This document shows, in pieces, positions 1 to 26,184 of a stretch of DNA of 64,000 bases. How positions within the stretch are numbered: the stretch's first letter is position 1; the number at the start of each line of letters is the position of its first letter. The DNA comes from a virus: positions 17,347-81,346 of the IMG/VR virus record IMGVR_UViG_3300028007_000001; one strand, given 5' to 3'. The translations under genes were made by a program, and so were the position numbers. Under the pieces are notes generated by a model. It searched no databases. It was not told where the DNA came from and was given only the letters and a program-made list of their open reading frames with translations.

Positions 1-479
1 AGACCGAGACTGACCATCTTCTGCCACGTCTCGGTCGTGAACGTGTCCTTGGGGCTGACGGCTGGGGTGAGCAGACGCTTCCGAGCCATCTTTCGGAAAG
101 TGACAGGACGGATCTGGTAGAAGAGCGAGTACGCCCACTTCATGGCGTCATACTCCCCGACCGAGTTCCGACCGCACTGCACCATGTGGTATCGGAATGC
201 CTGGAAGAGATGCAGGAGGAATCGAGAGCGATCCCCCACGACGATCTCGGCCTGATCCTCGTCGGAGTAGGCGGGAGACCAATCCCACGCCGTGTACGCC
301 CCGCCGATGCGAACGACCGGCGCCGGGATCCCGTACGCCTTGGCCGCAACGTCACAGAACTCCTGACCCGCAACCTCTCGGTCTGCCGGGTCCATCCTGG
401 ACGGCTGAGAATCGGCCAGAGTACGAGCGGCCTCGACAACTGACTCTCGGATGTTTCGGAATGCGAGATGGAGCCGCAC
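1..479 (-). CDS. hypothetical protein, C-terminus beyond window
   Basis: An open leftward frame runs from a GTG at 479 off the left edge, giving at least 159 residues. The start is chosen because AAGGAG lies 8 nt upstream and a consensus promoter with operator sits at 519-547. The product is soluble with no signal peptide; I see W-D-W, a run of acidic residues and a later aromatic stretch (MKWAYSLFYQ) but recognise no family. It is the first gene of the unit driven by that promoter, downstream of the amidotransferase gene. Function unknown. Confidence 0.75.
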   Translation of the reverse strand, partial: MRLHLAFRNIRESVVEAARTLADSQPSRMDPADREVAGQEFCDVAAKAYGIPAPVVRIGGAYTAWDWSPAYSDEDQAEIVVGDRSRFLLHLFQAFRYHMVQCGRNSVGEYDAMKWAYSLFYQIRPVTFRKMARKRLLTPAVSPKDTFTTETWQKMVSLG

Positions 480-4960: not shown

Positions 4961-5227
4961 TTACCTGCGGGTGGTGGTCCGTCGTGAGGAACCCGAGCCG
5001 TTGTTCTGGGCCTGCTCTTCACGTACCTGACGGAGAATCTGCGACACCCGGATTTCCGAAAGTCCGGAGATGTCTGCGATCTCACGGTAGGTCAGCCCGG
5101 CGTTGAATGCCTTGAGCATCCCCTTGAAGAACTTGCGGCGACTTCTCTCGGCTCTGGCCTCGTCTCGGCTTCGAACTGCGCTGAGTTCGGTGAGACGCTG
5201 CCGAGCGGTCTCCTTGCGGTTCGGCAT
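4961..5227 (-). CDS. small HTH DNA-binding protein
   Basis: 88 residues starting at the ATG preceded by AGGGAG. An upstream in-frame start exists at 5278 but lacks such a site. A basic N-terminal helix precedes the helix-turn-helix LTYREIADISGLSEIRVSQI (about 45-64), resembling sigma region 4 or LuxR-type HTHs. The tail is Arg/Thr-rich. As first gene of the leftward unit, divergent from the structured region at 5471, it is a candidate regulator of the early operators. This role is inferred from position only. Confidence 0.75.
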   Translation of the reverse strand: MPNRKETARQRLTELSAVRSRDEARAERSRRKFFKGMLKAFNAGLTYREIADISGLSEIRVSQILRQVREEQAQNNGSGSSRRTTTRR

Positions 5228-5320
5228 CTGCGTGCTCCCTGATTGGCTGCTCGTCTTCAGTTTCTCACATCTCGTCATCCGGATCCAGTTGAAAGTAGAT
5301 CCGTAGAGAGGATGCTATGC

Positions 5321-5349
5321 ACCATACCAAACTATCGGAACTTTGTCAA
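5321..5349 (-). promoter_or_regulatory. leftward promoter for HTH/coiled-coil/membrane unit
   Basis: Minus strand: TTGACA (5349-5344), 17-nt spacer AAGTTCCGATAGTTTGG, TATGGT (5326-5321). It diverges from the promoter at 5437-5465. Confidence 0.85.
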
Positions 5350-5371
5350 GCGAGACTTTCCGAAACCGATT

Positions 5372-5383
5372 TCCGAATTCGGA
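5372..5383. repeat. genome-repeated palindrome TCCGAATTCGGA
   Basis: A perfect 12-bp palindrome between the divergent promoters at 5321-5349 and 5437-5465. Four more copies lie in promoter-rich gaps. Each arm is the genome-abundant word TTCGGA. Confidence 0.85.
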
Positions 5384-5436
5384 TATGGGTACGGGCGGGA
5401 GCGCCAGGTCCGAGTTTCCGAATGTCCGATTGCCTC

Positions 5437-5465
5437 TTGACACACGGAGAACATTCCTATATAGT
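5437..5465 (+). promoter_or_regulatory. consensus promoter upstream of the structured region
   Basis: TTGACA (5437-5442), exactly 17 nt, TATAGT (5460-5465): one of the best sigma-70-type matches in the window. Transcription should begin near 5472. The spacer lacks the AAACTTT palindrome found at the sister promoters, so it may escape the same repressor. Confidence 0.88.
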
Positions 5466-5470
5466 GAAGC

Positions 5471-5904
5471 CACTTGCTAGCCACGCCCCACCGAACCCTC
5501 TCTACTCCACTCGGGAGGGGAAGCCGGGAACACCGGGGAAGGGTGGAACGAAGCAGATCCTCTAGGTATCCGTGGCTCACTGCCGACAGAGGTCGGTGCA
5601 AGGGAGAGAGGCGCTGGACTCAAAAGCAGTCCAGTCCTCTCTCCCAGCACCGGGAACGTCGTTCGGGCGACGTAAAACAGGGGTTAGGCCCGAAGCGGTA
5701 TCCGAAAGGTTACGTCCCGAAAAACCGAACAAGGTGGCGTGGAGTGGGAGCGTCACCGAATCTCTGGCGGAATCCCACCCGGCAGAGAGAGAGTTCGGAA
5801 GCATCCTGCTAGGTCAGCCGGGCGGTCTAGCAGGTCAGGTTTATGTTCCGGCGAGGGAGTTGCCCGACCCCAGAAGAAAGGAGCGACGGCTCCATCGGGC
5901 ACTC
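5471..5904 (+). ncRNA. large structured RNA or long structured leader, family unknown
   Basis: About 430 nt without a convincing gene but with nested helices. AGCCACG 5479-5485/5571-5577 encloses CCCACC 5487-5492/5541-5546, a 7-bp hairpin 5496-5519 and CCGG 5524-5536. The strongest hairpin stacks CGGTGC 5594-5599/5647-5652, ten pairs 5602-5611/5636-5645 and seven pairs 5614-5620/5628-5634. Others: ACGTCG 5656-5673; GGTGGCGT 5733-5740/5750-5757; TCTCTG 5761-5766/5783-5788; CCTGCTAG 5805-5834; GAGT-GCCCGA 5857-5867/5895-5904 around GGAGC 5880-5893. Loop GTGGGA (5744-5749) complements loop TCCCAC (5773-5778), a likely kissing contact. No tmRNA features. It ends 22 nt before the next ATG, so it may be trans-acting or a cis leader. 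Confidence 0.7.
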
Positions 5905-5926
5905 AAAATTCCGAAAGGGGTACGGT

Positions 5927-6829
5927 ATGACTCGCACGGACGTTCACGCTCCGAGCAACTTCGATCCTGCTGACTACGAGTACGTCACGTGGTTCTACAA
6001 GGGCGAGTGCCCGCAGTTGATTGAGGGCGAACTTCGATTTTCGGATCGTCGTGAGCAGGCCGAGCGTCTGCTTTCCGAAAGTGCGTTCCGGGGCAACTAC
6101 GCCAACCGAGGGAACTGCGATCACTGCGGCGCCTACTTCCTCTGGGTCACGGTGTGGCGTCACCGCCCGACCAACCAGCACATCGCTGTGGGCGAGATCT
6201 GCGCCTCCGAACGTTTCTCTCTGCCTAGCCGGGTGGCTTTCGAGTTGAAGTACGCCCGAGACCGGGTGGCCGAGGCTCGTCAGCGGGAGCGCCGCTACTC
6301 CGAAGTGGTGGAGTGGATGCAGAACGAGTGCCCCGACCTGATCCCGATCCTCAGTCGAGAGAACATCGAGGATCACCCTGCTTTCGGAAATTCGTTCGTT
6401 GCTGACGTTCGTCGGCGGCTGTGGCAGTACGGCCCGCCTCTGACCGAGCGGCAGGTTGCGGCTCTTCGGAGTGCGAAGCAACGCTCCGAGTCTGTCCAGC
6501 AGGAGCGTGAGGAAGAGACATACGTCCCTACGCCTCTTGGCCGCACGACGTTCGAAGGGGTCGTGGTCAAGACCGATACCAAGGAAAGCGACTACGGCAT
6601 TCGGCACACGATGATCGTGAAGGTCGAGCAGGGCGAAGGCGTGTGGCTCTGCTACGTCACCATTCCGAACTCCATCCTTGGGGTGGGTCGTGGAGACCGT
6701 GTGCGTCTAACCGCCAAGATCGAGCGGGGTCGTGACGAACATTTCGGATTCGGAAAGCGACCGACCCAAGCCGTGGTCGTGGCCCGAGCAGAAGAGGAAC
6801 GAGCGGTTTCTGCTTCTGCACTTGACTAA
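5927..6829 (+). CDS. hypothetical protein, zinc knuckle plus beta-rich C-terminus
   Basis: 300 residues, started at the ATG after GAAAGGGGTACGGT. An upstream in-frame ATG at 5843 would overlap the structured RNA and is rejected. GNCDHCGAYF and GEICASERF (about 65-91) supply C-x2-C...C. A helical middle follows, and the last roughly 90 residues (from RTTFEGVVVKTDT) look like an OB-fold-type barrel. Zinc knuckle plus possible OB fold hints at nucleic-acid binding. It is the first gene after the structured RNA; its stop overlaps the promoter at 6822. Confidence 0.75.
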   Translation: MTRTDVHAPSNFDPADYEYVTWFYKGECPQLIEGELRFSDRREQAERLLSESAFRGNYANRGNCDHCGAYFLWVTVWRHRPTNQHIAVGEICASERFSLPSRVAFELKYARDRVAEARQRERRYSEVVEWMQNECPDLIPILSRENIEDHPAFGNSFVADVRRRLWQYGPPLTERQVAALRSAKQRSESVQQEREEETYVPTPLGRTTFEGVVVKTDTKESDYGIRHTMIVKVEQGEGVWLCYVTIPNSILGVGRGDRVRLTAKIERGRDEHFGFGKRPTQAVVVARAEEERAVSASALD

Positions 6830-6850
6830 TCACAAACTTTGTGATATAGT
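6822..6850 (+). promoter_or_regulatory. early promoter with 15-bp palindromic operator
   Basis: TTGACT (6822-6827), 17-nt spacer, TATAGT (6845-6850). The spacer contains the perfect palindrome TCACAAA-C-TTTGTGA (6830-6844), and the -10 is followed by ATAGTCTGCTATGG. The promoter overlaps the end of the preceding gene and serves the gene at 6879. Confidence 0.88.
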
Positions 6851-6878: not shown

Positions 6879-7232
6879 GTGAATCAGTACGAGGTTGGCG
6901 CCATCCTCCGGGTGAAGGCCAGGAGCGAGCAGGACGCTGTGGATACCGTTCATGGCGCCATCGACCGGGCCAGCCACCTTGACGACGGGACCGGACTTGT
7001 CGACGGTGTTGCGTACCGTCCGATTCCGGGTGCCAAGGTAATCGTGTTCCAGTGGAACACCGATCACGGCGAGTGCTACGAGTGCGGGCGCCCGGCTGCG
7101 TTCATGGTGGTCGACGCCGCCGCCCCTCGCCAGTACGACCCGTCATACCCCTACAACCTTCGCTGTGCCTTGTGTGCTGCCAACAACGCAGCAGACGGCG
7201 AGACCATCCGACGAATCCGGGAGGAAGCATGA
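6879..7232 (+). CDS. zinc-ribbon hypothetical protein
   Basis: 117 residues. The GTG start follows the GAAAGGGGTACAC leader. Residues about 68-71 (CYEC) and 105-108 (CALC) form a C-x2-C...C-x2-C site flanking a proline/tyrosine-rich stretch. The N-terminal half is alpha/beta. The stop overlaps the next start (ATGA), so it is translationally coupled. Function unknown. Confidence 0.75.
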   Translation: MNQYEVGAILRVKARSEQDAVDTVHGAIDRASHLDDGTGLVDGVAYRPIPGAKVIVFQWNTDHGECYECGRPAAFMVVDAAAPRQYDPSYPYNLRCALCAANNAADGETIRRIREEA

Positions 7233-12208: not shown

Positions 12209-13066
12209 ATGGCACGCACGATCGGTATGGAAATTGAGACCGGATGCGATGACTGGGCGCCCGTTGTCGGTGGCATCCGTTCTCGTGGCGTCTACCTGGA
12301 AACGACCGACAACTACGCCACTGGCGAACGGGTCGACCAGTGGACGGCAAAGCCTGACGGGTCGGTCGATGGGATGGAAATCGTTTCTCCACCCTTCGAA
12401 TTCGCTTCGCCATTCTGGCGTGACGAACTCCGGAAGGTTTGCGAAGGCGCCCGCTCGGGCGGCGCCCGCCCGCACTCTTCGGCCGGTATCCATGTCCACG
12501 TGGACGTCTCCGACCTTCCCGCCCGGAACGTGGCGAGTATCGTCAAGTTCGTCCACAAGTTCGAAGACTTCCTGTACCGGATCGCTTCGGCAGGATGGCA
12601 AACGATCCGATCGGGCGCCGCTACCTACGCCAAGCCGATTCACCCGAACCTCGCCCATGCCATGTACCGGGTACGTTCGGCGGGCGACCTTGAGCGGGCA
12701 TGGTCGGGCGTCGACCGATACCACGCCGTGAACCTTCACTCGTACTTCTTCCGGGGAACGGTGGAGTTTCGGATTTTCAACTCATCGTTGAATCCGGATC
12801 GCATCGCATCCTTCGTGGCGTTGTGTCACGGCATCGTTGAGGATGCAACTCGCCACTCCCGTTCGCTTTCGTCCGTCTATCCGGTCGGAGGAATGGCGTC
12901 CGGTGCTACGGACGAACGGGCGCTACTGCTTCGTCTCCAACAAATCCTCACATGCTATGACCGCGACACTTCGGCGCCCATGCTTCACGCTGACTGGCAA
13001 ACCCTCCGCCGCACGTGCTGGCAAGAGTCTCGCCCGCAGGTCGCCGAATCACTCGCCCGGTGGTAA
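12209..13066 (+). CDS. amidoligase, glutamine-synthetase-like fold (copy 2)
   Basis: 285 residues beginning MARTIGMEIETG with the G-x-E-x-E signature. SSAGIHVHVDVSD (about 91-103), NLHSYFFRGTVEFR (about 176-189) and FNSSLNPDR are shared with copy 1 (1687-2619). It is shorter than copy 1. It starts after the GGGGTACGCA leader and is followed 70 nt later by its amidotransferase partner. Base use differs from neighbours: many GGCGCC and CGGGCG words and fewer TTTCGGA words, suggesting a separate, later origin. The reaction is inferred as ATP-dependent amidation of an unknown carboxylate. Confidence 0.85.
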   Translation: MARTIGMEIETGCDDWAPVVGGIRSRGVYLETTDNYATGERVDQWTAKPDGSVDGMEIVSPPFEFASPFWRDELRKVCEGARSGGARPHSSAGIHVHVDVSDLPARNVASIVKFVHKFEDFLYRIASAGWQTIRSGAATYAKPIHPNLAHAMYRVRSAGDLERAWSGVDRYHAVNLHSYFFRGTVEFRIFNSSLNPDRIASFVALCHGIVEDATRHSRSLSSVYPVGGMASGATDERALLLRLQQILTCYDRDTSAPMLHADWQTLRRTCWQESRPQVAESLARW

Positions 13067-13136
13067 CGGGCGCACAACTCCCCGGCGCCCGTCATACGGG
13101 CGGGCGCCCATCCTTCGAACAGAAAGGTTTCTGACA

Positions 13137-13958
13137 ATGTGCAGACTCTTCGGCATGTACCTTCCGAAGCAGGAACGGATTCCTGCTAACGAGATCGCTG
13201 CCATGCTGGCATACCGTCTAACGGACCTAGGTCCGGACGCCTACGGTGTCGCCACGTGGCAAGGCGGAAACGCAAAGGTTCGGCATTCAAACTACGTCGG
13301 CCGTGCTGACTCGCCCGCCGGTATCTGTACCATCCTGTCCACGGTGCCACGCCATGCACGGTGGGTTATCGGTCATACCCGGTACGCCACGCATGGGGAT
13401 CCGGAGCACGCCTACAACAATCACCCGATTCGTCACGGCCGAATCATCGGCGCCCACAATGGCGTTATCTGGAACTACGCCGACATTCTCCGGGTGACTG
13501 GGCGCCACGATCGGCGGGCGGAAGTGGATTCCGAAGCAATCTTCGCACTCGCCCACAAGTTCGGCGCCGACAACGTGGAAGAACTTTCCGAACTTTGCGG
13601 GAGCATCGCTGCTACGTATGTCGACATTCGGCGCCCGTCCACGTTGTATCTGCTTCGTGGTGCGGACTCGCCACTCATTGTCGGGCGAACGGAGAACGGC
13701 GGACTCATTTGGGCGAGCGAGCGCCAGGCACTCCACTCGCTTCGCCCGCTCGTGACCTACGTGGAAACAGTCGACATGCCAGAGGATCGGCTATACGTGG
13801 TGCGTGACGGGCGCATCGTGCAACGCCTGGACGTTCCTTTCTGGCATCCTCGCCCGGTTGTTCCTGCCAAGAAGAAGGGAGGAAAGTCAAAGGGTGCCAC
13901 TACCCCCGGCGCCCAGCACAAGGCTAGCAAGCGTGGCGAGATCATTTTCGGAAAGTGA
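13137..13958 (+). CDS. class II glutamine amidotransferase (copy 2)
   Basis: 273 residues starting MCRLFGMY (Cys2 nucleophile). GHTRYATHG (about 80-88), NNHPIRHG and HNGVIWNY (about 107-114) are the glutaminase motifs. The start is fixed by the need for Met-Cys at the N-terminus, with GAAAGG 8 nt upstream; a longer in-frame extension to 12837 lies inside the amidoligase and is rejected. The C-terminus is a short Lys-rich tail. Ammonia would pass to the amidoligase encoded upstream. A GGCGCC hairpin terminates the cassette. Confidence 0.87.
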   Translation: MCRLFGMYLPKQERIPANEIAAMLAYRLTDLGPDAYGVATWQGGNAKVRHSNYVGRADSPAGICTILSTVPRHARWVIGHTRYATHGDPEHAYNNHPIRHGRIIGAHNGVIWNYADILRVTGRHDRRAEVDSEAIFALAHKFGADNVEELSELCGSIAATYVDIRRPSTLYLLRGADSPLIVGRTENGGLIWASERQALHSLRPLVTYVETVDMPEDRLYVVRDGRIVQRLDVPFWHPRPVVPAKKKGGKSKGATTPGAQHKASKRGEIIFGK

Positions 13959-24216: not shown

Positions 24217-24316
24217 TCGACCCGGCGAAAACCCTCCCGAGGGCAAGGTCAAGCAGTCTGATCGAGACCGGGAACAGAAAACTTTCCAGCGTCCGGGCAC
24301 GGAGGTCCGCAAGTGA
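24173..24316 (+). CDS. small disordered protein overlapping portal end
   Basis: 47 residues, highly charged (KDQNPKSDRPGENPPEGK), ATG after GGAGGAAG. It overlaps the portal 3' end by 44 nt and the next start by 4. Predicted disordered. Unknown. Confidence 0.5.
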   Translation: MTENETTKDQNPKSDRPGENPPEGKVKQSDRDREQKTFQRPGTEVRK

Positions 24317-26184
24317 ACGAGAAGGTCGCCACCTTGCAGCGTCACCCCAAGAACAAGTCTCTCTCTGAGGCCGTTCAGGAGGACGCCCCGAAGTTCAAGG
24401 CCGTCTCCAAGAACGGCATCAACAAGCGGTCGACGCTGATCAAGGCTCCCGGTGACGAGGGTCAGGTCGGTGGGATCATGGAGCCGACTGCTGAGCAGTT
24501 GGAGAAGATCAACCAGTTCACTCGTCGCACCGTCTCGGCCGAAGAGGTCTGCGTCCTGCCCACCCTGTCGTGCAACGACTTGGTGGACCGGGACTACGAC
24601 CAGTTCGTCAAGCAGTGCGTCAAGGACTTCGCCGCAATGGAGCAGCCGTTCTCTCCGGTCGGCAAGTCCTTCATGGTCGATCACGCCTACTCGGTCGCCA
24701 ACGCCGTTGGACGGATCTTTGACGTGGGGACGAAGACGATCAACAACGCCTTCTTCCTCACCAACGACGTATACATTCCGAACACCGAGAAGAACTCGGA
24801 CTTCCTTGAAGATGTCGAGTTCGGAGTCAACTGGGCTGTCTCGGTTGGCGTGGTTCTCGGGAAGTCGGAGTGCTCCGTCTGCGGAGAGCGGTTCTCTTCG
24901 TGGGGATATTGGTGCATCAACGGCCACGACAAGGGCCTGCACTACACGAAGGACGCAGAAGAGGATTCTTTCGGATGGCCCATTCCGTGTGAGCCGTCCG
25001 AGAAGGGCGCCATCCTCTGCGTCCGGCAGTTCTCTGACCCGAGGGACTTCTACGAACTGTCTCAGGTCTTCCTGGGGGCGCAGTATTACGCCGCCCTGGA
25101 GCGTGACCCCGAGATGGACGGAATCCTCAAGGCTGCGAGCGCAGAAGGCATTCCTGTCATCGGCCTGTCGGAAGAGCAGGCCAAGGAGATTCCGTTCCGC
25201 CACGAACCGCCCAAGGTCACGGAGGCCCGACTCGCTGGTCTGGTTTCCGAAACCGAAGACGGTCTCGTCAAGTGGACGGACGAGCAGGGTTTCCTCTGGG
25301 TCTACAACCCGCAGGAACCTGAAGAGGGCGTGATGTCGCTCGGAAGGTCTTCGGAACACGAAGACGAAGATGTCGAAAACGACAAGGAGGCCAGCGATGG
25401 CAGTGAGGAACTGGACGAACATGCTTCGGGGAACGACGCAGCGGGAGACGAGCAACACGCTCAGCCCGACTCGTCGGGTCGGAAGCAGCATCGGTCGGAA
25501 GATCCGGGGTCGGAAGTCGGCTCAGTTCAACCGGGGTCGTCGGGCACGCTGACCGCAAGTGCCGACGAGGACGATTCCGAAGAGGAAGAGTCCGACCCGG
25601 ATGAAGTCGCTGGTGACGGCGACGAGTCGGAGGACGGCGGGGAAGAAGACGAGGCCGAGGAAGATTCGGAATCCGAGACGGTGGATGCGGTCGCCGCTGC
25701 TCGGAGAGCCGGTCTTCCTTCCGAACTGATTTCCTCGGTAGTTGGTTCGGGAACGGCGACGGTCGAGTCTCTCTTCTCCGCTGCCTCCGCAGAGATCAAG
25801 GCCCTCCGCAAGACGATCACGAATCTGGAGGCCAAGGGAGAGATCGCTGACAAGTACGTGGAGGAACTGCGTGCTGACGCCCTCTCCTGGTACATCAAGT
25901 CTCGCCAGGCCGGTGAGCAGCGACCCGTCAAGACCGAAACTTTCGAGAAGTTGCTCGATCGTTGCGGTGACGACGTGGAACTGATCAAGGCTCTGCGGGA
26001 CGAGCAGAAGGAAGCCGCCCACGCCAAGTTTCCCAAGTCGGTTCGGCGGTCGACCTTCCCTGGCGATCCGCACGAAGTCGAGCGGCCTCGTCTGTTCGGT
26101 GCGGACGATCGAACCGAGGAAGAGGAAGTTTCCGAAACCGTTGATTCGGCGGGAGACACGAAGGTCAGACGAATCCACGGCTAA
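24313..26184 (+). CDS. capsid maturation protease fused to scaffold
   Basis: 623 residues from GTG 24313. The N-terminal domain (about 60-340) contains FMVDHAYSVANAVGRIFDVG (about 120-139), where His and Ser are candidates for the protease active site, and a zinc-like CSVC...C cluster (about 194-210). Residues about 350-460 are an Asp/Glu/Ser low-complexity linker. The C-terminal 150 residues are helical, as in delta or scaffolding domains. Position between portal and capsid genes supports protease plus scaffold in one chain. Catalytic residues are inferred. Confidence 0.72.
   Translation: MNEKVATLQRHPKNKSLSEAVQEDAPKFKAVSKNGINKRSTLIKAPGDEGQVGGIMEPTAEQLEKINQFTRRTVSAEEVCVLPTLSCNDLVDRDYDQFVKQCVKDFAAMEQPFSPVGKSFMVDHAYSVANAVGRIFDVGTKTINNAFFLTNDVYIPNTEKNSDFLEDVEFGVNWAVSVGVVLGKSECSVCGERFSSWGYWCINGHDKGLHYTKDAEEDSFGWPIPCEPSEKGAILCVRQFSDPRDFYELSQVFLGAQYYAALERDPEMDGILKAASAEGIPVIGLSEEQAKEIPFRHEPPKVTEARLAGLVSETEDGLVKWTDEQGFLWVYNPQEPEEGVMSLGRSSEHEDEDVENDKEASDGSEELDEHASGNDAAGDEQHAQPDSSGRKQHRSEDPGSEVGSVQPGSSGTLTASADEDDSEEEESDPDEVAGDGDESEDGGEEDEAEEDSESETVDAVAAARRAGLPSELISSVVGSGTATVESLFSAASAEIKALRKTITNLEAKGEIADKYVEELRADALSWYIKSRQAGEQRPVKTETFEKLLDRCGDDVELIKALRDEQKEAAHAKFPKSVRRSTFPGDPHEVERPRLFGADDRTEEEEVSETVDSAGDTKVRRIHG

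Follow-up and report, generated by a model that had tools for sequence, protein, structure and literature searches.

At the centre of the leader that precedes the gene at 5927 in a 64-kb stretch of viral DNA (here called the window, and part of an 81-kb IMG/VR record) lies a complete pistol ribozyme that, judging from its sequence, is predicted to cleave its own RNA. The full model of the family (RF02679, model positions 1–68) covers 5656–5719 on the plus strand (Rfam match 5657–5719) at 48.5 bits, against a gathering threshold of 34.5, with an E value of 8.9e-6 in 64 kb. It is the sole Rfam family matched in the window, and the record holds a single copy. The original prediction for this region had assigned the RNA to no named family; the Rfam run, which that prediction had itself asked for, brought out the ribozyme that it had missed.

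Stem P1 comprises six pairs (5656–5661/5668–5673) around the 6-nt loop UUCGGG, in line with the class, for which about 5 pairs and a 6-nt loop are expected, and this loop (5662–5667) forms a pseudoknot of six Watson–Crick pairs with CCCGAA in the P2–P3 junction (5689–5694). The covariance-model alignment places P2 at 5681–5683/5716–5718 (GGG/CCC) and P3 at 5698–5703/5708–5713, with five pairs, one U·U mismatch and a GAAA loop. The predicted cleavage site, G5714–U5715, is aligned to the G53–U54 site of the env25 pistol (PMC6154101). The conserved core, checked in the Rfam alignment and by comparison with about 100 phage pistols, is present: AAAnA, UUAgGC, AGCG, the equivalents of env25 G40 and G42, and the G–U dinucleotide at the site of cleavage. 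G5719, which follows P2, was considered as a possible aberrant base and rejected, since a G stands there in 13 of 61 comparable pistols. The short P3 with its U·U mismatch is the weakest in the comparable set, so that the activity of this copy may be low. When the isolated ribozyme region is folded with pseudoknots disallowed, a different pairing is favoured.

The segment from 5472 to the ATG at 5927, about 455 nt, appears from its signals to be the mRNA leader of gene 5927. A promoter of TTGACA (5437–5442), a 17-bp spacer and TATAGT (5460–5465) on the plus strand agrees with the consensus at 11 of 12 bases, as originally proposed, and transcription is expected to start near 5472; the pattern TTGAC-(16..18)-TAnnnT occurs at seven sites in the window, this promoter being one of them. 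At the other end, a Shine–Dalgarno sequence, AAAGGGG (5914–5920), is followed by a 6-nt spacer (the two together spanning 5914–5926). No terminator was found between leader and gene; for this reason a self-processing mRNA leader describes the region better than an ornate RNA standing by itself. The nine open reading frames tested across 5471–5904, on either strand, all have negative codon-usage scores (between −0.06 and −0.34 bits per codon, where true genes of this phage score 0.17 to 0.56), and none of the six compared with Pfam gave a match; the claim that this interval holds no plausible gene was thus borne out, and the noncoding stretch of about 430 nt is confirmed as a genuine feature. 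Folding of 5470–5926 falls 3.8 standard deviations below that of shuffled sequences, and 5601–5800 on the plus strand ranks third by folding z-score among 1278 windows on both strands.

Piecewise folding against shuffles showed this structure to be uneven along the leader. The first 121 nt (5472–5592, plus strand) fold no more stably than expected by chance (z +0.38, 200 shuffles). Next comes a long composite hairpin at 5594–5652 (+), which ends only 3 nt upstream of P1 of the ribozyme; it has 6 + 10 + 8 = 24 pairs, one more than first counted, with −44.9 kcal/mol, z −9.1 (folded as 5593–5653) and pair probabilities of 0.89–1.0. It may serve as an RNase III site or as a folding insulator. Matches of the leader region to microRNA families in Rfam lie far under the cut-offs and merely reflect this hairpin. 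The bases at 5611–5625, once likened to a Leu tRNA anticodon arm, also belong to it, and ARAGORN found neither tRNA nor tmRNA genes; Rfam likewise gave no tRNA or tmRNA match, and the earlier exclusion of a tmRNA holds. Starting 10 nt 3′ of the predicted cut, a three-way junction (5725–5798, +) is closed by the stem 5725–5730/5793–5798; the segment 5720–5799 folds at −35.0 kcal/mol (z −4.0; equalled by 0 of 200 shuffles). The fold contains two plus-strand hairpins, at 5733–5740/5750–5757 and, with one internal mismatch, at 5761–5770/5779–5788, whose loops are linked by a kissing interaction between the exact complements GTGGGA (5744–5749) and TCCCAC (5773–5778). Six contiguous Watson–Crick pairs between random loops of this size have a chance of 0.3% (P about 0.003), which upholds the kissing contact proposed at the outset. 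Further downstream on the same strand are an 11-pair hairpin, CCTGCTAGGTC/GGTCTAGCAGG (5805–5834), for which 5799–5845 gives a marginal z of −2.1, and a stem, 5862–5867/5895–5900, around a hairpin at 5880–5893 (5862–5900 overall; a weak z of −2.0 for 5856–5926). In these folding models the long hairpin and the three-way junction are clearly beyond chance and the two 3′ hairpins marginal, so that the original count of at least ten helices was an overstatement, given the 5′ segment and the 3′ hairpins.

The pistol probably cuts the leader of the gene 5927 mRNA and in this way brings about self-processing, stabilization or insulation of the message, and this is the reading that we favour. During transcription the ribozyme would cleave its own RNA between G5714 and U5715, releasing a 243-nt 5′ RNA with a 2′,3′-cyclic phosphate end; the remaining mRNA would have a 5′-OH end and a 212-nt leader starting UCCCGAAAAA, followed by the compact junction domain. 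A 5′-OH and a folded 5′ end slow 5′-dependent decay, and an mRNA of this kind would be a poor substrate for it. Translation of gene 5927 would be uncoupled from whatever stands upstream, and the upstream hairpin would keep 5′ sequence from pairing with the ribozyme. An mRNA-processing role fits the usual site of phage pistols, between genes on the same strand and close to the next start codon. Cleavage for processing and for stabilization or insulation is favoured by these properties of the new 5′ end, by the strong structure on both sides of the ribozyme, seen in the leader pistol only among 56 comparable phage pistols, and by the effect of RiboJ, an insulator that shares the layout of a 5′-UTR ribozyme followed by a stable structure before the ribosome-binding site and that in Escherichia coli increased the amount of transcript about twofold and that of protein two- to tenfold (PMC6206723). 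RiboJ, however, is engineered and combines a hammerhead with a single hairpin, whereas the present leader is natural and combines a pistol with a kissing-loop three-way junction over >200 nt.

A more ambitious version, which we advance tentatively and consider rather unlikely, is that the pistol and the junction form a natural composite processing cassette, in which the junction would cap the new 5′ end as an undescribed mRNA-stabilizing or ligand-sensing element and possibly, along with the upstream hairpin, gate the ribozyme. It is also conceivable, if unlikely, that the true product is the upstream fragment, with the ribozyme acting as the 3′-end maker for a trans-acting, structured small RNA of 243 nt (5472–5714) and the mRNA as a by-product. 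A pistol cut would give such an RNA a defined 3′ end right after a very stable hairpin and would make a terminator unnecessary. Against this, its first 121 nt are those that show no structure beyond chance, and searches for homologues of this 5′ part in phages, capsid-related records and pistol loci were negative.

In purine riboswitches, as in the kissing-loop junction of the leader, a three-way junction is combined with loop–loop pairing of two hairpins, and the 74-nt domain described here, which resembles them in architecture, could be read as a ligand-binding, riboswitch-like element that controls the ribozyme or the translation of gene 5927. Its junction sequence is unrelated to that of purine riboswitches, however, and no Rfam riboswitch model matches 5300–6000 even at E ≤ 5; the junction moreover lies outside the ribozyme and has no helix in common with it, and the searches gave no homologues that would reveal conserved junction bases. 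We therefore regard ligand control as quite improbable. Of the earlier suggestion of an ornate phage RNA or riboswitch-like leader, what survives is a structured, promoter-driven RNA that runs into gene 5927; no Rfam riboswitch family was matched, and a free-standing RNA is the less apt description.

As far as seen in the records searched, the leader appears to be lineage-specific. The capsid protein as a query gave eight related records, while TerL, the protein at 24313–26184, and the downstream protein alone gave no relatives. All eight capsid-related records lack a pistol in this search, which detects the window's own copy; several of the records examined are fragments, so that absence from them is not proof. 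DNA resembling the leader is absent from the capsid-related records, from the pistol loci and from 50,697 phages, the junction-loop pattern has no match in IMG/VR, and a plasmid match to the leader proved to be a chance match only. In G001, the closest relative with the same gene order, the downstream gene directly follows its promoter and the leader is almost absent. The downstream gene (5927–6829, +; 300 aa, phrog_4265) has homologues in 14 IMG/VR contigs and in Microbacterium and Arthrobacter phages; in the 14 contigs the upstream gaps are mostly 20–140 nt, and no pistol was found near these homologues or elsewhere in 13 of their records (G001 being covered with the capsid relatives). Gene 5927 can thus do without a pistol, given these pistol-free relatives and their mostly short leaders. 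The same absence, together with the weak P3 and the single copy, might suggest a functionless pistol, recently acquired or decaying, in an inconsequential leader. Yet nothing is missing from the core bases, P1, P2 or the 6-bp pseudoknot, all of which an unselected 60-nt motif would soon lose, and the flanking elements are highly significant; such a relic seems to us a poor candidate. A hidden protein gene within 5471–5904 is scarcely credible, as the open reading frames of 112 and 133 codons found there are, like all others, clearly non-coding in codon usage, the six frames compared with Pfam gave no match, and no homologue was found in which synonymous substitutions preserve a frame.

Divergently from the leader, a gene with its own promoter (5349–5321, −) encodes a small sigma-70-region-4-like HTH protein (4961–5278, −). 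Three TTTCCGAA sites (5357, 5370 and 5415) lie between that promoter and the leader promoter, and this 8-mer occurs 51 times in the window, where 2.3 are expected. The shorter TTCCGAA has 110 occurrences in the window and 185 in G001, where it often lies between −35 and −10 boxes (L130–L133, L142 and L143), compared with 5–6 in each of two other related records, G005 and G007. Because the HTH protein is present in G001 and was not found in G005 or G007, it is a candidate binder of an operator- or stoperator-like network. The next gene downstream, with a GTG start at 6882, has a short leader and its own promoter, TTGACT-17-TATAGT (6822–6850), with the inverted repeat ATCACAAACTTTGTGAT in the spacer. 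Elsewhere in the window, a pair of genes for an amidoligase and a class-II glutamine amidotransferase-like protein occurs twice (570–2619 and 12209–13955), the first copy being assigned by Pfam and the second amidoligase matching the same loci.

Pistol ribozymes are common in phages, and for the elaborate setting described here our sequence searches found no relative. A pistol-core pattern retrieved >100 further stretches from IMG/VR, the majority with a correct P1 and pseudoknot, and a stricter pattern gave 39 in IMG/VR, compared with 3 in bacterial and archaeal genomes totalling 257 billion bases; control loci also exceeded the Rfam cut-off that was used for the leader pistol. The pistol of Tenacibaculum phage Gundel_1 lies between two annotated genes and is only weakly similar to the ribozyme of the window. 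The copy in the leader shares P1, the pseudoknot, P2, P3, the core and the G–U site with the class (RF02679) as described by Harris et al. (2015; PMC4604425), and likewise lies near phage genes. Most of the described members of that class come from firmicutes and environmental DNA, whereas the leader copy is found in a GC-rich phage record whose genes have relatives partly in actinobacterial phages; it is also promoter-proximal, with a short, U·U-mismatched P3, stands between two unusually stable elements and departs from the usual site in that its leader belongs to a divergent unit with a single promoter. The theta (HDV-like) ribozymes of gut phages (PMC10879173) are self-cleaving and process phage RNA, as is proposed here for the pistol; they are nevertheless of another class and process tRNAs, whereas the leader contains no tRNA.

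In some phage contigs pistols form arrays a few hundred bases apart, with three within about 630 nt (L150, 1375–2006), four in L108 (2399–4650) and two in L089 (5381–5966), which suggests that polycistronic phage mRNA may be cut into pieces. A subclass of 15 loci mostly carries a large insert of about 77–128 nt in P3 and, behind it, a conserved hairpin, CTGTGAAGG(N)ACACAG (L022, L074, L151, L154, L019, L032, L065, L067, L087, L115, L144, L145, L152, L158 and L166; the insert is 19 nt in L145 and L152). The insert of L074 folds as a tRNA-like cloverleaf with the T-arm sequence GGTTCGATTCC and with P3 as acceptor stem, though ARAGORN calls no tRNA there, and L149 has a similar T-arm-like insert at the end of the stored stretch. 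Loci of this kind could give rise to tRNA-like RNAs that the ribozyme processes.

According to a 2017 review, self-cleaving ribozymes have many roles that were still to be investigated (PMC6154101). Most phage pistols are intergenic; a leader with a single promoter and two well-defined flanking domains would allow a clean measurement of what cleavage does to one mRNA. If its layout does stabilize the message, phages would have reached the RiboJ design ahead of engineers.
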